Shown: positions 2 through 10,425 of the stretch, piece by piece
How the letters are laid out: each line of letters opens with the position of its first letter
How positions within the stretch are numbered: position 1 is the stretch's first letter
Virus record (IMG/VR): IMGVR_UViG_3300034063_000536
Location: 1 to 21,756 of that record
Direction: 5' to 3' (one strand)
Length of the DNA: 21,756 nucleotides
Origin: a virus
Notes under the pieces: generated by a model
The model's database searches: none
The model's input: only the letters and a program-made list of their open reading frames with translations
Told to the model about the DNA's origin: nothing
Made by a program: the position numbers and the translations under genes

Positions 2-769
2 TTACCACGGTCTATAACGGAGTATGTTAATGTTACTAAAAAAATAATCGATCACTATCATACTTTAGGTAGAACAATAAATTGGAAATTTAATGGAGGA
101 GAACCGTTAGATATGTTTGATTTTCCAATGATGCTTAAGTTATGTAAAGAAAATAATGGAAATATTGACTTAACTACAAACGGAGGAAAACTATGGCTAG
201 ACTGGTGGGCTATTGCTCCGCATGTAGACAGCTTACATTTATCTTTCCATTACTGGCAACAATTTAATTTGATAAAATTTATATTTGATGCATTTCGAAA
301 GAATAATAAAACTGTTGAAGTAATTGTTCCTATTAGACCTGATTATTTTAACGAAGATATAGCAAGAGCTTTAAAAGTCGAAAATGAATTTAATATTGTA
401 GTTTCTAAATATATTTTATATAGAAATGCTGATCCAATTGGAGGCATGTTTCCTTATACTGATGAACAATTGAGAATTATAAGAGGTGAGCAATTAGTAG
501 AAGAAAAGAAACATTTTGAAGAAACTACATTTCAAGAAAGACTAACAGAAACACTAAATGCTAATCCTAGTTATACAGGGAAATTGTGTAATGTAGGAAT
601 AGAAAGTTTATCGATTAGTCACGACGGTTGGGTATCTGGTAGTGCATGTGGAAATACATCACTAGGTAATATTTGGCATGATAATTTTGAATTACCTGTA
701 GGACCGCAACCGTGTAAGATGATAGCTTGTGTAAATGAATCCGATCAAAAAATTACTAAGTTTGATTAA
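2..769 (+). CDS. Radical SAM protein with C-terminal Cys cluster, 5' end cut by window
   Basis: The frame is open from the first bases of the window, so this is the 3' part of a longer gene; the first internal ATG (113) is not the true start. The sequence NGGEPLD just before that Met is the GGEP motif that contacts SAM in radical SAM enzymes, and an alternating strand/helix pattern of a partial TIM barrel follows. The CxxxCxxC cluster motif must lie upstream, outside the window. The C-terminal part has four Cys (in KLCN, SACG, QPCK, IACV) around ISHDGWVSGSACGN and LGNIW, which resembles SPASM/Twitch domains that hold an auxiliary iron-sulfur cluster. It is the only plus-strand gene and converges with the HIT gene, overlapping it by 4 bases. 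The substrate is unknown. It is too long and too Cys-rich at its C-terminus to be a simple QueE. Confidence 0.8.
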   Translation, partial: LPRSITEYVNVTKKIIDHYHTLGRTINWKFNGGEPLDMFDFPMMLKLCKENNGNIDLTTNGGKLWLDWWAIAPHVDSLHLSFHYWQQFNLIKFIFDAFRKNNKTVEVIVPIRPDYFNEDIARALKVENEFNIVVSKYILYRNADPIGGMFPYTDEQLRIIRGEQLVEEKKHFEETTFQERLTETLNANPSYTGKLCNVGIESLSISHDGWVSGSACGNTSLGNIWHDNFELPVGPQPCKMIACVNESDQKITKFD

Positions 770-1158
770 TTTTTGTAATTGCCCTTGCCAGGAATAACAT
801 TTCTAACTCCGCCAGTAGGATCTTCGCTATCGCCTGATCTTCGTAGGATTAAATGAACATGCGGGTACATAACAGTTTGTCCAGCAGCCTTACCGATATT
901 TAAACCGATATTAAACCCGTCACATTTTCCTTCTTCAACTAACATCATTCCATGTGTATATGCGTCGTAAAATGCATCTTGTATAACAGCAGGGGTATTA
1001 TATTTAGGTACAAATAGTAAATGGCCGTCAGTAACTGGGTACTTATCTTTATATACCGCAACATGAAAATCTTCTCGAACTAAGTTATCCCAAGGAGCAT
1101 CACTTTTTTCTAGAGTATCGGCCATTTTTATTTTAGATTGGTTAAATGAAAACATCAT
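766..1158 (-). CDS. HIT-family nucleotide hydrolase/transferase
   Basis: A 130-residue histidine-triad protein. The typical features are in order: GHLLFVPKY near residues 45-53, [16 protein letters not shown] at 81-96 and the triad region [10 protein letters not shown] at 99-107. The triad is His-Val-His-Leu-Ile, so the first two histidines (H100 and H102, the latter equivalent to the nucleophile) are present and the third is Ile. HIT proteins hydrolyse or transfer nucleotidyl groups on AMP- or ADP-linked substrates; the substrate here cannot be told. The start is uncertain: ATGATG at 1158 overlaps the end of the GMP reductase gene by 17 bases, and an ATG at 1125 (MADTLEK) gives a protein 11 residues shorter with no overlap. 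Neither has a clear Shine-Dalgarno sequence. It is the last gene of the minus-strand cluster. Confidence 0.85.
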
Positions 1159-2164
1159 TAATTTGTCTATTTACTCGAACAAATGTGGTACATTTGCTTA
1201 GTTGCTTTAATGTTTGTGCACCAACATATGTACAAGTACTGCGTAGACCACCGAGTATATCGAGCACAGTTTTTCCTACAGGACCCCTGTACGGCACTTC
1301 TACAGTCCTTCCTTCGCTGCTTCGGTAGCTTGCTACACCACCGTGGTGCTTCTCCATAGCAGTATCCGAACTCATTCCGTAGAATGAAATAGTATTGTTT
1401 GTATGATTTACGGTGCCTCCACCTTCATCATGCCCAGCAAACATACCTCCGATCATAACGAAGTCCGCACCAGCACCAAAAGCTTTAGCAACATCGCCAG
1501 GACAAGTACATCCACCGTCAGCCATAATATGACCACCAAGACCGTGAGCGGCATCGGCACATTCAATAATAGCACTAAGTTGTGGGTAGCCCACACCAGT
1601 TTGAACACGAGTAGTGCAAACGCTCCCAGGCCCAATACCAACTTTAACAATATCTGCACCACGTAAAATTAACTCCTGCGTCATATCTGCGGTAACAACA
1701 TTACCTGCAATGATAGTTTTATCTGGAAATTCTTTTCTTACCTTTGCTACAAAATCTCCAAAATGTTCCGAATAGCCGTTTGCAACATCTATGCAGATAA
1801 ATTTTAGCTTTGGTAATGCAGCTAAAATAAACTTTAACCGTTCGAAATCTTTATTATTTGTTCCCGTACCGACTGCTGTAAAATCAGAAAATAAATTATC
1901 TCTTTCGTCTACCCATTGTTCAAGAGAGTATGATTTTACTGCGCAGGTTAGCAGTTTATGCTTTTGTAATTCCTTTGCCATTGCAAATGTACCTACACCG
2001 TCCATGTTTGCAGCAGTAATAGGGACACCTGTCCATGTGTTTTTACTCCACTTAAAACTATAGGTACGTTCTAAAGAAACTTCTTTTCTGCTCGAAAGTG
2101 TACTACGTTTTGGTCTAATTAATACGTCTTTAAAATCTAACTTAATGTCTTCTTCAATAATCAT
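1142..2164 (-). CDS. guaC: GMP reductase
   Basis: A 340-residue protein of the IMPDH/GMP reductase family, close in length to bacterial GuaC (about 346). It reduces GMP to IMP and ammonia with NADPH. The active-site loop [11 protein letters not shown] (177-186, catalytic Cys183 and Thr185) is followed by [23 protein letters not shown], the phosphate-binding [15 protein letters not shown] and [12 protein letters not shown], a pattern that matches GuaC rather than IMPDH. There is no CBS domain. MDGVGTF near 54-60 and YRGPVGKT at 292-299 also fit. The start overlaps the stop of the cupin gene as ATGA (2161-2164), so translation is probably coupled. In a phage it would shift host guanine nucleotides toward IMP and adenine nucleotides, which is plausible for an AT-rich genome; that role is inference. 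Confidence 0.93.
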
Positions 2165-2637: not shown

Positions 2638-3735
2638 TTACATTAAATTTTGCAAAAGTCTATCACAACTAAAAAATAAATTAGTTAAATCTTGTGCTTG
2701 TTTACGTACATACGAAACATGTTTATCATAATTTTCCATTATAGTAATAATGTTATGACAAATGTTTGGTCTGAATTTTTCGTAGTTCTCCCAAGAATCG
2801 GTCCACTCGGAGGGATATTTAAATCCTTCGTAATACATTTCTTTGTATGATAACCGATTAGGTACCAATGGTACAGCATTCACTAATGCGCCTTCGTAAC
2901 ATCCAATACCTAGTGTTTCTTGCAAACTGCAACTAAACACAATTTTAGATTGTCCTAACAATGTGTGATATTGATCTTTAGTAAGAGATTGATCTTGACA
3001 CACTACAAACTCGTATTGTGGAAGATGTTTAGCAATGTCTCTAAAAATCTCAACTTGCTTTTCTGGAGCAATGCGGTGCGGAAACAATACTAGATTTCGT
3101 TTTTCAAGGTTAGCATATGGACTTAGGATATTTTCCATATATTCCATAGGCCAACCAGATCGTACAATCTTAGGCCAATTGCCGCTCAAGATTTCGTCTA
3201 GGTCATCCTCTAACCAAGGATTTTCTACAATGCCATTAAGCAAATTGCGTACAAACATTTCAATATGGAAGTTTGTAGCAAAATAATTGTAATCGATAGC
3301 ATGGTAAAAACTTTCCTCGGCAAATCTAACCCAAGGTTTATTACCGATTAGACGACCAAGGAAGTCATGAGGGTCATAACTTCCAGCATGCCATAGAGCG
3401 TGAATCTTGACAGGAATGCCAAGAAGCTCGCTCATATATTTTAAATTTACAATGCCCGGATGCCAAGCATCAGTGAAAATAAAATGGTCGCCAGGAGAAA
3501 TACGTCCATTGCAAAAAAGTCTACCCATCTTTTCAACTTGAGAAGACTTGTAGATATTAGTGCCACCAAAATTAAGAAAGGCACCTGGAGTAGTAGCAGC
3601 CGGGATATCCGTAGGCCCGTCAATAATTTGAACATTGTGCCCTGCCTTTTTTAGTAATTCAGGAATATGAGTTTTCCATTGACCTGTATAGCGTGTTTCC
3701 ACGCTTTCCAGGTCTACAAGAAATATATTACTCAT
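2638..3735 (-). CDS. GT-B glycosyltransferase, GT4-like
   Basis: A 365-residue protein with the C-terminal half of a GT-B glycosyltransferase. VLFPHRIAPEKQVEIF (216-231) is the donor-binding loop with the Arg/Lys pair (R221, K226) that holds the nucleotide-sugar phosphates. QETLGIGCYEGALVNAVPLVPN (272-293) contains the EX7E motif (E273 and E281) of retaining family 4-type enzymes. The N-terminal half starts with the usual beta strand (NIFLVDLES). The acceptor is unknown. In T4-like phages glycosyltransferases can decorate modified DNA bases, and this gene shares a cluster with a DpdA-like base-exchange enzyme; action on a virion protein or host surface sugar is equally possible. Its start lies 2 bases after the stop of the next upstream gene. 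Confidence 0.8.
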   Translation of the reverse strand: MSNIFLVDLESVETRYTGQWKTHIPELLKKAGHNVQIIDGPTDIPAATTPGAFLNFGGTNIYKSSQVEKMGRLFCNGRISPGDHFIFTDAWHPGIVNLKYMSELLGIPVKIHALWHAGSYDPHDFLGRLIGNKPWVRFAEESFYHAIDYNYFATNFHIEMFVRNLLNGIVENPWLEDDLDEILSGNWPKIVRSGWPMEYMENILSPYANLEKRNLVLFPHRIAPEKQVEIFRDIAKHLPQYEFVVCQDQSLTKDQYHTLLGQSKIVFSCSLQETLGIGCYEGALVNAVPLVPNRLSYKEMYYEGFKYPSEWTDSWENYEKFRPNICHNIITIMENYDKHVSYVRKQAQDLTNLFFSCDRLLQNLM

Positions 3736-5052: not shown

Positions 5053-5081
5053 ATTATATAGTAATTAGTATCAATTGTCAA
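5053..5081 (-). promoter_or_regulatory. Perfect consensus sigma70-type promoter
   Basis: Read on the minus strand, TTGACA (5076-5081), 17 bases, then TATAAT (5053-5058). It overlaps the last codons of the DpdA-like gene. Only 6 bases separate the -10 box from the ATG of the 175-aa gene at 5046, so transcription would start at or next to that ATG and give an mRNA with almost no leader. It would drive the 175-aa, 59-aa, T-fold and later genes by host RNA polymerase early in infection. Confidence 0.75.
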
Positions 5082-6624
5082 GATCTTCTGCTAATTTTCT
5101 CAATTCATCGTCGTCCGGATTAGTTAGATCTAATTCTTCTTGACGAGTAATTTGAGTTTCGAATAAATTACCAAATGTATTTTGAGCAGGGCCACCGCGT
5201 AGTCGAGCACCTTCTAAGCTACGTAAGAATGGTCCAGCTTCTTCAATCATTGTAAATGCTTCATCTTTAGTTTTAGTATTGAACAACTCTTCAACAAATT
5301 GACTAAAATAAAGAATATTACGAGGCACCCAATCTGAATATTCGTCACTGGCTGAATTTTTAGCATTAAGTTTTTGCCAAGCTTTCCAGTTTAGCTTTCC
5401 TTTTATTTTAGCAATTTCAATATCCATTAATTGTTGGGCACGTTGTACAGCAACAATATGGCAATAAACATTATGACCCATCATAAGGGCATATGAAAAA
5501 CTATCCCAAGATGTTTTGCCTTCTTTACCAATTTTGTTAAGCATACCTGGAGCATACCAACAAATGTCTCCCATTGTTAGTCTGCGGCCGAATTCTGATT
5601 CGAAGGGGAATGGGATTGTGCTTTCGGCAAGTAGTTTGTTATCTGGTGCTTTGTCCATAATAACACTCCAACGTTTCGTAGTGTGTTGGGCATTTGTGTA
5701 GACGAGTCCGTGTGCTGTTGCAATAAACGGTGAGGCGCAGTCAAAAGATATGGTAAGGTTTTCATTAATGTGTTTCCTAATTTGTCGTTGAATTAAAGTC
5801 AGATAGCACGACCAGTCAAGTTGTGCTGTACCAAGAACGTGAATCCAGTCTTTGTTTTTTAACAGTCCGTCTTCACGTAAGGTCATCAAGCGTTTGAGGG
5901 TGATATCCATTTTACACATGTTAGCACCTCCGAACGCCCATCCTTCTGCGGCTTTATCGCCCCAGACAGCAGGATCACTAAATTCTTTTACACCTTGATA
6001 CCATTTTTCAGCAGTATCCCAATCTGATCCTTGTAGAACATTTAGAAACTTAGTTTGTCCTAGTCTACGTGTCAGCCAGTATTCGTTATTGAACCTTGTT
6101 TTATCTAAGCAATCATCGAATGTCTTTAGCCCAGTTTTAGCAGTATGATTGTGATCACATGCCCATGTTGGTACATCTAAAAACATTGACCAATCAGCAG
6201 TCATTTCTAACCAAGCTAAAATATCATCTCGAACTTTATTTGCCTGTGTTCCTTCAAAGTCTAACCAATCAAATTTAAGAACACCTTTACCAATTTGGTA
6301 TCCTCCTGAATCTCCGAGGATCATAGTATTTTTACGATCTCGTTGTTGGATCATTGATTCTTGTACTACGCTCTTATTAAGATCAAGTTGAGCATGACCT
6401 GCAGAATAAAGAGCATATTTGTAGGTAAAATAACCTTGTTCTGGATTAAGAAAGTTCATACCTTCTATTCCACGATCAAATCCTTGAGGAATACGATCTT
6501 TAGGAACAAATTCATCAAGACGTTGTTTAGCTACATAGGTAGAATAAAACGAACTGATAGCTGGAAGATAAACAGCATAATCCTGCTGTAAAGGAGTTAA
6601 ATCAACTGGTGGTCTGTAAGTCAT
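5071..6624 (-). CDS. DpdA-like DNA guanine transglycosylase (TGT superfamily)
   Basis: A 517-residue homologue of tRNA-guanine transglycosylase. The catalytic landmarks occur in order: ILGDSGGYQ (D105, general acid/base), FLDVPTWA (D150, base recognition), VLQGS (Q198), WAFGGANM (G232-G233), VLGTAQL, and SFDCASPF (D295, the nucleophile of the FDC motif). The CxCxxC-H zinc site that follows the nucleophile in tRNA enzymes is not visible. Phage relatives of this kind (DpdA) swap guanine in DNA for 7-deazaguanines such as preQ0, which blocks host restriction. The C-terminal region contains NTFGNLF (482-488), identical to the end of this phage's DNA polymerase, in a disordered acidic tail: a likely sliding-clamp docking peptide. 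Its start overlaps the end of the 121-aa gene by 23 bases. A tRNA-modifying role is the alternative, but the phage setting favours DNA. Confidence 0.8.
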   Translation of the reverse strand: MTYRPPVDLTPLQQDYAVYLPAISSFYSTYVAKQRLDEFVPKDRIPQGFDRGIEGMNFLNPEQGYFTYKYALYSAGHAQLDLNKSVVQESMIQQRDRKNTMILGDSGGYQIGKGVLKFDWLDFEGTQANKVRDDILAWLEMTADWSMFLDVPTWACDHNHTAKTGLKTFDDCLDKTRFNNEYWLTRRLGQTKFLNVLQGSDWDTAEKWYQGVKEFSDPAVWGDKAAEGWAFGGANMCKMDITLKRLMTLREDGLLKNKDWIHVLGTAQLDWSCYLTLIQRQIRKHINENLTISFDCASPFIATAHGLVYTNAQHTTKRWSVIMDKAPDNKLLAESTIPFPFESEFGRRLTMGDICWYAPGMLNKIGKEGKTSWDSFSYALMMGHNVYCHIVAVQRAQQLMDIEIAKIKGKLNWKAWQKLNAKNSASDEYSDWVPRNILYFSQFVEELFNTKTKDEAFTMIEEAGPFLRSLEGARLRGGPAQNTFGNLFETQITRQEELDLTNPDDDELRKLAEDLDN

Positions 6625-6967
6625 GTTTTTTTGATAAATGTATTGTTGTTTCTAATTGTTGTTCTGCACGTTCTAGATTTTCTAATGCTGCTTTAATTGC
6701 AGGATGAGATTCTGCTAATATCTTTCGATCACGTTCTTCTAACATTTTTTTGCTAGCCCAATTTAAGATATCGTTTCCGTGTGTAGTTAAATCTATAGTT
6801 TGATATTGATTAAGAGGTCTCCAATAGCTCCCATCATAAACTTCTAAGCAAGAACCGTTACCGTTATATCGAACCATGCCTGCACTTGGGGTAGCCATGT
6901 TCATATATTCTGCGTTAACAGTACCTACACTTATGTAGGGGCTATTGGAAATTACACCTTTAATCAT
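6602..6967 (-). CDS. Possible virion-associated protein with coiled coil
   Basis: A 121-residue protein. The N-terminal half (GMVRYNGNGSCLEVYDGSYWRPL, about 30-52) is a short beta module that I recall from phage fibre and virion proteins, where it follows segments like MATPSAG. The C-terminal half is a charged helix (LNWASKKMLEERDRKILAES, then AALENLERAEQQLETTIHL) likely to form a coiled coil. It overlaps the clamp stop as ATGA (6964-6967) and the DpdA-like start by 23 bases, so translation is tightly coupled in this replication/modification operon. That position is odd for a structural protein; the role is unknown. Confidence 0.65.
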   Translation of the reverse strand: MIKGVISNSPYISVGTVNAEYMNMATPSAGMVRYNGNGSCLEVYDGSYWRPLNQYQTIDLTTHGNDILNWASKKMLEERDRKILAESHPAIKAALENLERAEQQLETTIHLSKKHDLQTTS

Positions 6968-7698
6968 GTTTGTGCAGGGATGATATACTTGTAAACAGCA
7001 AGACCGCTATCTAATGTTAATTGTAAAGCACCTTCGTTACTAATACTCATTTTAGTATTGTTAACATCGGCAATTTTCAAAATGCTTAAAATAGGTAACA
7101 CAGGCCAAGTCCAATTTTTATTAAGTTTTCCGCTTACATTGGTAGCAAACACAAATTCGCCACCGTGGCTAGCAGCATCACCGAATGTAAACTTAAGATC
7201 AGTTCCATCAGTCTTTGCTAAGAACGTTGCATGTTCGTTGTTTGCAGCAGCTTGGAATTGAAAACGTTGTACTGCACTAACAGTCGGTTCAACTTCAACA
7301 TCCCATTTTACACCACGGAACTTAACAGTCTTAAGTTTTTCGTTAATGATATCGCTGTTCATAAAACGATAATCGTTCTTAAAGTCTTTAGTCTTATTTT
7401 CAAAATGAACGCCGACTGGAATAGTTTCGCCATTTCGATCTGCTTTTACAACATCGATTTTTGCGTCTTCTTTGTACTCTGGGCAATCTAGTAGATATTT
7501 TAGCTTGCTCATTTGACTCATACCAAATACACCGAGCATGTCTGGATTAGGAGTAGTTGTTTCGGCAAACATAATTACAGTACGGTCATCAGCCATACTA
7601 TCAATTTGTGTTTTATCTTCAGCGCCTGTAATTTTTACAATATTCAAAAACCCTAAACTGTGTGTATGGGCTACGATGTCTTTTAATAGATCTTGCAT
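6964..7698 (-). CDS. 45: Sliding clamp (DNA polymerase processivity factor, gp45-like)
   Basis: A 244-residue protein of the size and strand pattern of T4-type sliding clamps, which form a trimeric ring around DNA and tether polymerase and, late in infection, RNA polymerase. An N-terminal helix (MQDLLKDIVAHTHSLG) is followed by beta-rich repeats, including IDSMADDRTVIMFAET, MLGVFGMSQMSKLKYLL, and a C-terminal half with GEFVFATNVSG and SISNEGALQLTLDSG. An upstream ATG-less extension is open in frame, but the ATG at 7698 is chosen because AAAGGAAA lies 4 bases before it; the longer version would translate through that site and the promoter. It directly follows the polymerase gene. Identification rests on pattern and context, since clamps diverge strongly in sequence. 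Confidence 0.85.
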   Translation of the reverse strand: MQDLLKDIVAHTHSLGFLNIVKITGAEDKTQIDSMADDRTVIMFAETTTPNPDMLGVFGMSQMSKLKYLLDCPEYKEDAKIDVVKADRNGETIPVGVHFENKTKDFKNDYRFMNSDIINEKLKTVKFRGVKWDVEVEPTVSAVQRFQFQAAANNEHATFLAKTDGTDLKFTFGDAASHGGEFVFATNVSGKLNKNWTWPVLPILSILKIADVNNTKMSISNEGALQLTLDSGLAVYKYIIPAQT

Positions 7699-7702
7699 GT
7701 TA

Positions 7703-7710
7703 TTTCCTTT
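7703..7710 (-). promoter_or_regulatory. Ribosome binding site that fixes the clamp start
   Basis: AAAGGAAA on the minus strand, 4 bases before the ATG at 7698. It rejects the 16-residue N-terminal extension that is open in frame. Confidence 0.8.
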
Positions 7711-7717
7711 ATAGTTA

Positions 7718-7746
7718 ATTTTATTTAGACCTGATGCAAATGTCAA
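7718..7746 (-). promoter_or_regulatory. Sigma70-type promoter for the clamp gene
   Basis: On the minus strand TTGACA (7741-7746), 17 bases, TAAAAT (7718-7723), in the 57-base gap between the polymerase stop and the clamp start. Transcription would start close to the AAAGGAAA ribosome binding site, leaving a short leader. It would let the clamp, the 121-aa protein and the DpdA-like enzyme be expressed together by host polymerase. Confidence 0.75.
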
Positions 7747-7755
7747 TGATTATTT

Positions 7756-10425
7756 TCAATCAAATGAAAATAAATTACCGAATGTATTATCCTGTGTAGT
7801 GGATTCAAGATCCCATTCTAGAACACCTATTAAGTTATCTAGTTTGTTATTGATAATAACTGATTCCATTTCACTATGATCAAACGGTAGTTCTTGAAAC
7901 CATTTAGGTAGTCTAAGTTCGTCAGTAGGGTATGCAACTGATGTGTATCCAAGTGGATTATCTTTTACCTTACAGACAATAACTTTCATACCATCTACAA
8001 TGCCCATTGAATATTTGTCTCCGTGCATACGCTTTAATGTATTCCAATTCATACTTGCACGTACATGTCCGGGCATATTTGCCTTACCTTTTTTCTTTTC
8101 TTCTTCTTGATACTCAGTGAGATTATTAACACGCTTTGGTGTGCCTTTTTCCCAACCAGGTCTTGCTTTAAAATCTGTTCTAAACTCTTTAATTCGTTCT
8201 AATATGTCATTTTCTTTTGCGCCATTCAATACTTTATTTAGAATTTCACTAAGGAAGTTCTGCATAAATTCTGGTGTATCACTACGCTTGAGGTCTAACC
8301 CCATAGCTTTAATTTTACCAGACTTTCCCTCTGTGTCATATCTGTTACCATCTTTATCGTAATAAAGAACAGCATATCTTTTCTTAGTAATGAATAGGCC
8401 TTTACTGGCTACAATTTCTCGACCTGCCTTGATTACTTCTCCTCTTGACTTAGGGCAATGAAATGCATCTAGCATAAATTCCGGAAAGGTTGAGTTTACA
8501 TTTTCTGCAATAGTGTTATATAGCTGAATAACAATGTCTCGGTCCCATGGTATTGCTTTCTTAAGGATATCTGTTTTCAATGTTGGATATGCACTGAAGT
8601 AACATGAATCTGTATCACCGTATATAATTGATTTTCCTACGTGATCAAATTCACCAGTAATCATCTCATTTACTTTACCGGCCATATAGCGAGCAATGCT
8701 TCTTCCAGTTAAAGTAGTTGATTGGCCAATACGCTTATCAAAGAAACGGCACCCGGGATTAAGAATAGCACCGTAGAGTGAGTTAAGGTTAATCTTTTTA
8801 ACCAGTTGACGCTTGTCCCAATATTCTTCTTCAATTTCATTATTTGCTTCTTTTGCTACTTTTAACTTTTTCTGTAGTTCTTTACGTTCTGCATACCAGC
8901 GTTTTAGCAAACCTGGAATAACACCTTCACTGTCATAAGTAAAGATTGTTCCGTTGGCGCTTAACATCCAAGGCTGGTTGCTTTCGTATATTAGTTTATA
9001 TACTTCGGCAGCACTTAGCACATTGGTTTCTCCGTTTTCCCAATCAACAATAATATCAAACGCACGATCCTGCTTCATTACAGCATCATATTCTAGCGTA
9101 CCGAATAACCCTTCCCATGCAGCAGCAAATGACTTTTTGTGTATGCTCATTTGTTCTCGAATATATTTTTCTGTTTGTTCTGGTCTTAGCTGACCTACAA
9201 TAGTTTCTGGACCCATGTTTAATGCTCGAATTACACTAGGATATAGACTGTTTATATCCATTGAGCCGATCCAATCATGCAGACCTTTTTTAGGATATGC
9301 AACATATGCACCTGCTGCTTGTGTATCGCCTAATTCGTCTCTTTTAGTTCTACTTGGGACAATTAATCCTCTATGATGTGCTTCATTGATAATTGCCTGT
9401 TCGGTAACTGCTACAGCACCTAGAGTAGTTTGTAGTAGAACAGTGTTTTCATGTGCAATGGTATTTGCTAAATCAATAAATTTTAATTTTTTATCTAGTT
9501 TATCGAGCAATGCACAGTCTTGTCTGTTATATTCAATAAACTTTTTAAAATCGTTGTTATAAAGTTGATCGAGCGTACCTTCGTATACAGTTTTAGTTTC
9601 ACCGATTTCTAGTTCGCCAATGGCATCTAGACGATAGCTATGACGTTCTTCATACGTATATTTTCTATAAAGTTCGAGACTATCTAAATGAACACGGCCG
9701 ACTAAGTCATATGTTACAGCAGCCTTGCCATATTTTTCATATTCACGTTTTTTAGGAAATTGATTCCACAGACAAAACCTACGAGTATCTTCTTTTGATA
9801 GTGTTTTAGTAACACGATTTACAGTATACGGAATATCAAAGCCTTCTGAATTCCATCCACTTAAAATATCTGCATCTTCTATTAGTTGAAGAAACATTTC
9901 AAGCATTTCTGCTTCAGTTTCAAACAGATATGTATTAGGAAAATCTTTAACCTGTTCTTTTGCCTGTTCTATTGTTAGTGTTTTAGGCGGAATAGCAAGA
10001 CAGACTAACGTGTCGAGCCATTGCAAATGAACAGCAATAGCTGTAATAGGCATGAATGCATCGTCTGGGCTTGCATAGCCTCGTTCTGGATCGAAGTCTA
10101 CTTCAATGTCGAAAAATGCTACATTAAGTTTAGGTGGTTCTTGACCTAGATAGTGTTCTTCTAAAATACGAAATACAGCATTAATATCGCTTTCGTAAAG
10201 TTTATATCCACTATGGATTTTCTGTTCTTTAACAAAGTCTTTAAAGTTCTTAGTAGAAACTTTACTTAATGGTTCGTTATAGATCGAACGATATTTCCCT
10301 TTAGCATCGGGATAGTAAAAAACATATTTGGCAGGGTATTCTTGGAATAGCCTACCTTTCTTTGGATCGCGTTCAACGACTTGGATGATATCCTTATCTC
10401 GATCCCAGATGGCATCTACGTACAT
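7756..10425 (-). CDS. 43: Family B DNA polymerase (T4 gp43-like)
   Basis: An 889-residue replicative polymerase, close to the 898 of T4 gp43, with both editing and synthesis domains. Residues counted from the ATG at 10425: exonuclease motif I FFDIEVD (D106, E108), motif II GWNSEGFDIP (D197), motif III YNRQDCALL (D303); polymerase motif A SMDINSLYPS (D390), motif B KKINLNSLYG, motif C IYGDTDSCYF (D604, D606), then TKKRYAVLYYD. The last ten residues, NTFGNLFSFD, sit where T4 gp43 has its clamp-binding tail. The start is set by AAAGGAA 5 bases upstream; a 13-residue extension to 10464 is open but would translate the ribosome binding site. All catalytic residues are present and there is no intein or split. 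It is followed by the clamp gene. Confidence 0.97.
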   Translation of the reverse strand: MYVDAIWDRDKDIIQVVERDPKKGRLFQEYPAKYVFYYPDAKGKYRSIYNEPLSKVSTKNFKDFVKEQKIHSGYKLYESDINAVFRILEEHYLGQEPPKLNVAFFDIEVDFDPERGYASPDDAFMPITAIAVHLQWLDTLVCLAIPPKTLTIEQAKEQVKDFPNTYLFETEAEMLEMFLQLIEDADILSGWNSEGFDIPYTVNRVTKTLSKEDTRRFCLWNQFPKKREYEKYGKAAVTYDLVGRVHLDSLELYRKYTYEERHSYRLDAIGELEIGETKTVYEGTLDQLYNNDFKKFIEYNRQDCALLDKLDKKLKFIDLANTIAHENTVLLQTTLGAVAVTEQAIINEAHHRGLIVPSRTKRDELGDTQAAGAYVAYPKKGLHDWIGSMDINSLYPSVIRALNMGPETIVGQLRPEQTEKYIREQMSIHKKSFAAAWEGLFGTLEYDAVMKQDRAFDIIVDWENGETNVLSAAEVYKLIYESNQPWMLSANGTIFTYDSEGVIPGLLKRWYAERKELQKKLKVAKEANNEIEEEYWDKRQLVKKINLNSLYGAILNPGCRFFDKRIGQSTTLTGRSIARYMAGKVNEMITGEFDHVGKSIIYGDTDSCYFSAYPTLKTDILKKAIPWDRDIVIQLYNTIAENVNSTFPEFMLDAFHCPKSRGEVIKAGREIVASKGLFITKKRYAVLYYDKDGNRYDTEGKSGKIKAMGLDLKRSDTPEFMQNFLSEILNKVLNGAKENDILERIKEFRTDFKARPGWEKGTPKRVNNLTEYQEEEKKKGKANMPGHVRASMNWNTLKRMHGDKYSMGIVDGMKVIVCKVKDNPLGYTSVAYPTDELRLPKWFQELPFDHSEMESVIINNKLDNLIGVLEWDLESTTQDNTFGNLFSFD

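Follow-up and report, generated by a model that had tools for sequence, protein, structure and literature searches.

In the 21.8-kb virus record IMGVR_UViG_3300034063_000536, perhaps a fragment and here called the window (the whole stretch of DNA analysed), a DpdA-like enzyme and the family-B DNA polymerase carry the same peptide, NTFGNLF, in their C-terminal tails, and the pattern recurs among relatives and in a second, distant DpdA family. The DpdA-like enzyme is predicted to replace guanine in DNA by a 7-deazaguanine, either preQ0 or one of its derivatives. We consider it very probable that it docks on the phage sliding clamp and thereby brings base exchange to freshly replicated DNA; both clamp binding and the coupling of exchange to replication are what we infer from the sequence patterns described below. 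On the minus strand, the genes follow in the order polymerase, clamp, small protein and DpdA-like protein:

5071-6624, minus strand: predicted DpdA-like base-exchange enzyme of the tRNA-guanine transglycosylase (TGT) superfamily, 517 amino acids; profile-profile matches and invariant TGT-type residues
5161-5181, minus strand: NTFGNLF, putative clamp-docking motif of the DpdA-like enzyme (residues 482-488); conserved anchors, variable spacers
6602-6967, minus strand: small protein between clamp and DpdA, without the motif; none of its 104 homologues in relatives has the motif in its tail
6964-7698, minus strand: predicted sliding clamp, PCNA/gp45-like, 244 amino acids; phrog_12062; AlphaFold model with PCNA matches
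7756 to about 10425, minus strand: family-B DNA polymerase (gp43 type), 889 amino acids; PF00136, PF03104, phrog_262
7768-7788, minus strand: NTFGNLF near the polymerase C-terminus (...QDNTFGNLFSFD), read from the sequence; kept in 137 of 148 homologues and located where T4 gp43 has its gp45-binding tail, SLDFLFG

A polymerase-tail peptide in the DpdA-like enzyme

The polymerase ends in NTFGNLFSFD, and residues 482-490 of the DpdA-like enzyme read NTFGNLFET (tail peptide AQNTFGNLFETQ); coordinates and residues are as described in the initial annotation. Within the family of the window enzyme, the motif takes the form NxFxxLF at a distance of about 29 residues from the C-terminal end, in a tail that mostly scores below 50 in predicted local distance difference test (pLDDT) in an AlphaFold model. 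Among 71 distinct relatives, the entropy per anchor position is 0.11 bits for N482, 0.19 for F484, 0.72 for L487 and 0.00 for F488, whereas the spacers at 483, 485 and 486 reach about 2 bits each. Conserved anchors separated by variable spacers are, at the level of sequence, the pattern of a short linear motif, and because this motif is conserved across relatives, the identity between the two tails is far beyond chance.

When relatives of the two proteins were searched for joint retention of the motif, as proposed in the initial annotation, the outcome was clearly positive. Among 122 distinct DpdA tails from viral contigs, the pattern N-x-[FY]-x-x-[LFHWM]-F is present in 95 and a relaxed form in a further 20; one of the latter (L180) is counted through a match elsewhere, its actual tail reading NKGLFDWGD. 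The remaining seven comprise a read-through into the next gene (L029), four tails that still contain x-[LH]-F, and two (L140 and L163) that look like real motif losses. In a scan of 25 window gene families, the strict motif occurs in the last 70 residues of 137 of the 148 polymerase homologues and 117 of the 151 DpdA homologues, and in none of the 23 other families, three of which lacked homologues for the comparison. A permutation of the tails within the window family gave 0 of 5000 shuffles, but it was left uncorrected and, given the shared ancestry of these tails, carries no weight here. Used as scan queries, the enzymes of PA5oct and Vibrio phage 2.275.O found no viral-contig relatives. 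The Phosso enzyme, which itself ends in VEGLF, found two with tails ending in IIGGIFS; these ends are too weak to count as clamp motifs.

The DNA encoding the motif is also similar (AATACATTTGGTAATTTATTC versus AATACATTCGGTAATTTATTT), with 19 of 21 bases identical, that is, 19 of the first 20. This count stood up, but it adds no weight to the argument. Within a genome, the shared residues use the same codon at 51% of positions, compared with 48% between genomes, approximately the codon-usage expectation, and the DNA identity is therefore uninformative. These statistics give no sign of recent gene conversion, which was rejected as the cause of the DNA similarity, and point to selection on the peptide.

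Two DpdA families and tails matched to their own polymerases

The DpdA-like protein has no match in the Pfam, PHROG or NCBIfam libraries. Its relatives in isolated phages are found in PA5oct-type Pseudomonas phages (41% identity), Phosso (31%) and Vibrio phage 2.275.O (29%). A direct BLAST comparison with DpdA2 of Vibrio phage nt-1 gave no match, and profiles were needed to link the window family to the DpdA2 family (profile-profile match 92%, E 6e-7). An alignment combining both families matches a TGT set at 96.9% (E 1.6e-10), whereas the window family alone does so weakly (15.6%, E 0.0017), so that the DpdA assignment leans on DpdA2 as a bridge. A PDB profile search with DpdA matched only queuine tRNA-ribosyltransferases, weakly (E 0.1-0.9). 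The AlphaFold model was only partly confident for DpdA and its fold search was dominated by the clamp, giving no TIM-barrel confirmation. Two plasmid-borne proteins annotated as tRNA-guanine transglycosylases (L307, L311) gave a negative comparison with DpdA.

In the active site, DSGG-x-Q (105-110), D150, G199 and D295 are invariant in both families, and the invariant residues of the DpdA-like enzyme also include H262-x-L-G265; DSGG-x-Q, the second aspartate, the QG loop and the nucleophile aspartate D295 align with TGT residues. QueD (PF01242), a gene of the preQ0 pathway, occurs in 16 of the 21 large contigs that carry one or the other DpdA family, and QueC, taken as a further pathway marker, was found in 1 of 12 contigs, all fragmentary. 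Dependence of 7-deazaguanine in DNA on a dpdA gene has been shown for phage CAjan, and nt-1 DNA contains three 7-deazaguanine bases that together amount to about 0.17% of G (PMC6884629). The window protein appears to be a TGT-superfamily member with TGT-type active-site residues, for which base exchange is predicted. In CAjan, whose polymerase and clamp are of a different type, DpdA (L312:28848-29768, minus strand) ends in RVMELF*, unlike the tail of its polymerase, and dpdA lies two genes away from the polymerase processivity factor.

The co-conservation extends to DpdA2 of T4-like phages, in which 47 of 55 distinct sequences fit [LVI][DE]x[LFM]F near the end, with tails such as SLEDLFA, SLEELFG and NSLDDLFG; the T4 polymerase gp43 ends similarly, in KASLDFLFG. 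The position of the motif differs between the two DpdA families, which implies either two separate gains or a relocation. Moreover, DpdA tails resemble the polymerase tails of their own genomes. Written as polymerase/DpdA, the pairs read PSLDDLFE/TTLDELFE in ACP17, SSLEDLFGW/NSLDDLFG in IME-SM1, SSLESLFG/QSLEELFG in X1, STLDDFFS/ASLDSFFD in BUCT-ZZ01, NTVDDLFG/STVDSLFD in the T4-like viral contig L253, NNTDLFDW/NNNDLFGW in Vibrio 2.275.O and HFDSLFGW/NSFNSLFDV in PA5oct. Permutation of such tails supports an own-genome match across 11 lineages (p 5e-5) and across 8 within DpdA2 (p 0.004), p values that serve as indications, the representatives having been picked and aligned by hand and phylogeny left uncorrected.

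When the non-overlapping open reading frames (ORFs) of ACP17 were scanned for this type of C-terminal tail, only the polymerase and DpdA2 were singled out. Across DpdA2 loci, 96 of 1447 distinct ORFs of at least 100 amino acids carry the tail: 47 DpdA2, 20 polymerases and 29 others, 27 of which form one family. Its members (27 distinct; e.g., L223:8631-9992, with equivalents in L204-L279) are about 455 amino acids long, are encoded directly upstream of dpdA2, show weak glycosyltransferase similarity (PF00534, E 6e-4 to 6e-3) and end in clamp-type tails such as TLESLFA* and NLESLFG*. This protein is possibly a clamp-tethered DNA glycosyltransferase, a second modifier if it acts on DNA. Also near dpdA2, a 340-amino-acid protein without family matches (L214:9710-10729) ends in APSLEDLFS* and is a candidate clamp client.

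Proposed docking on the sliding clamp and competing explanations

The gene at 6964-7698 adjoins the polymerase gene, and its sole family-library match is phrog_12062, a family of unknown function. Its AlphaFold model (predicted template modelling score 0.74) has PCNA as best fold matches (E 3e-11), and homologues in PAC2 and Phosso are annotated as PCNA or sliding clamp; a comparison with T4 gp45 gave no sequence match. The model points to a two-domain clamp of the PCNA/gp45 type. In T4 and RB69, each gp45 protomer has a hydrophobic patch to which the C-terminus of the polymerase binds (PMC2988020, PMC7892883), in agreement with the initial annotation, and T4 gp43 ends in SLDFLFG. The clamp motifs of T4 gp43, gp55 and gp33 are interchangeable (PMC2988020), which implies that a shared motif means a shared site, and the same peptide on a flexible DpdA tail should accordingly bind the same clamp pocket.

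In the mechanism we propose, the shared peptide would be a sliding-clamp-binding motif, and the flexible C-terminal tail of DpdA would dock in the hydrophobic pocket that also receives the polymerase C-terminus. A trimeric ring would give three such sites, and the enzyme could ride behind the polymerase or alternate with it, modifying duplex DNA just after synthesis and before host nucleases act. The earlier suggestion of a clamp-riding, replication-coupled enzyme thus draws support from motif co-conservation, with binding and coupling themselves staying at the level of prediction. With somewhat less assurance, we also favour a broader view in which T4-type phages and related jumbo phages would generally couple DNA modification to replication by clamp tethering. 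The tail of the genome's own polymerase would then recur in at least two DpdA families and also, in many T4-like viral contigs, in the glycosyltransferase-like protein encoded directly upstream of dpdA2, and these proteins would form a clamp-borne modification crew behind the fork.

AlphaFold, run on natural read-through chains (polymerase tail plus clamp, and clamp plus DpdA from L017) with shallow alignments of 18 and 21 rows, gave pLDDT values below about 50 for the DpdA peptide and equally for the polymerase peptide that served as positive control, so these runs argue neither for nor against docking. Several observations weigh against clamp docking of DpdA. DpdA2 of KVP40 (L090), nt-1 (L087:9913-11304) and VH7D has no tail, while gp43 of KVP40 and nt-1 still ends in ITLESFFG, and in pf16-like DpdA2 the end is degenerate. 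The pattern named in the initial annotation as refuting, an enzyme kept without its motif beside a polymerase that retains it, is thus confined to small side branches (KVP40/nt-1/VH7D and pf16-like phages) and single members of the window family such as L140 and L163. As a natural tail-less control, nt-1 DpdA2 works without a tail, although weakly (about 0.17% of G; PMC6884629), and judging from these exceptions the tether seems dispensable for activity. The low modification of nt-1 is in line with the model, as a single case for which other causes are possible; the openly licensed papers searched contained no tail-bearing phage whose modification had been measured. T4 α-glucosyltransferase offers a precedent by binding gp45, as confirmed by pull-down in 2026, yet glucosylation levels in vivo are not set by this contact (PMC13216743). 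Its sequence was checked and has no tail of the SLDFLFG type, so its clamp contact must differ.

This result from T4 also speaks for an alternative in which the tail is a true clamp ligand with a mainly regulatory role, DpdA competing with the polymerase or parking on lagging-strand clamps without fork-timed modification. Such a role would use the same motif and presumably the same pocket, and clamps act as tool belts (PMC2988020). We regard it as unlikely, since a DNA-modifying enzyme gains most simply from delivery to its substrate and competition would cost replication. A greater departure would be a protein that modifies tRNA, or is no base-exchange enzyme at all, with a tail of other meaning. 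Its absence from all family libraries and the single QueC among 12 fragmentary contigs would fit, but all TGT-type residues are present, the protein is homologous to DpdA2, whose host phage nt-1 carries 7-deazaguanines in its DNA (PMC6884629), QueD is common in relatives, and the clamp motif points to DNA; we give this explanation little credence.

Still less credible is binding of the motif to another shared replication protein, such as the clamp loader, helicase or single-strand binding protein. The AlphaFold chains, which placed neither peptide on the clamp with confidence, leave room for such a partner, but the polymerase C-terminal tail is an established gp45 ligand in T4 and RB69 (PMC2988020) and the SLDFLFG end of T4 gp43 nearly equals the DpdA2 tail. 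Finally, the 19 of 21 identical bases in the window might suggest shared descent or gene conversion, with a tail recently copied from the polymerase gene and functionless in DpdA. This account is already contradicted, as the codons used agree no better within a genome than between genomes, the anchors are conserved across many divergent lineages while the spacers drift, and the peptide is placed differently in the two DpdA families; its probability is close to nil.

If DpdA does dock on the clamp, a modifying enzyme carried by the replication ring would offer a simple, testable answer to the open question of how phages that modify their DNA after synthesis outpace host nucleases. Phages with tail-less DpdA2 (nt-1, about 0.2% of G) would then modify sparsely and tail-bearing phages more densely. 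In addition, a genome's own polymerase tail could serve as a sequence tag for finding clamp-tethered enzymes among unannotated phage proteins.

Genomic context and known clamp-borne systems

The polymerase matches PF00136 (7e-38), PF03104 (2e-19), phrog_262 (4e-198) and, in PDB, RB69 polymerase; its nearest relatives are in jumbo phages such as Phosso, Atu_ph07 and the CBB/RaK2 group. Several relatives (L016, L031, L055, L082) have a split polymerase gene with two reading frames, and in PA5oct a homing endonuclease gene ends immediately before the second part of the split gene. The small protein at 6602-6967 has no space where clamp and dpdA adjoin, as in the viral contigs L017, L078 and L006. 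Elsewhere in the window, a glycosyltransferase-like gene near dpdA (2638-3735, minus strand; weak PF00534) is kept in 158 relatives and carries no clamp motif. An IMP dehydrogenase/GMP reductase homologue (1142-2164, minus strand; PF00478, E 1e-71) is encoded by the same phage as the predicted guanine-exchange enzyme and may influence guanine pools. A radical-SAM-like ORF (2-769, plus strand; PF04055, E 0.003, below cut-off) is truncated at the window edge.

As the initial annotation anticipated, no description of a clamp-tethered DpdA turned up in the openly licensed papers searched, and the word "clamp" does not occur in the text on nt-1 (PMC6884629). The nt-1 DpdA2 is, like the window enzyme, a TGT-superfamily homologue with the same active-site residues; unlike it, the nt-1 and KVP40 proteins have no clamp tail. 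The closest parallel to the tail itself is the gp45-binding end of T4 gp43, likewise a short hydrophobic and acidic peptide ending a flexible tail, with SLDFLFG almost a DpdA2 tail; the gp43-type tail is terminal, whereas the window-family motif lies upstream of the C-terminus. In T4, the sharers of gp45 named in the cited papers (PMC2988020, PMC7892883) are the polymerase, ligase and late-transcription factors, while here they would be the polymerase and a base-exchange enzyme. T4 α-glucosyltransferase (Sommer 2004; PMC13216743) is likewise a phage DNA-modifying enzyme that contacts a T4-type clamp. It differs in chemistry, adding glucose to hydroxymethylcytosine. In eukaryotes, DNMT1 is a DNA-modifying enzyme tethered to PCNA through a PCNA-interacting peptide (PIP) motif; it is unrelated to DpdA and acts as a maintenance methyltransferase rather than by base exchange. 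Clamp-tethered DNA modification is therefore already known from T4 α-glucosyltransferase, and what the motif patterns would add is a base-exchange enzyme as the tethered modifier, in two DpdA families.

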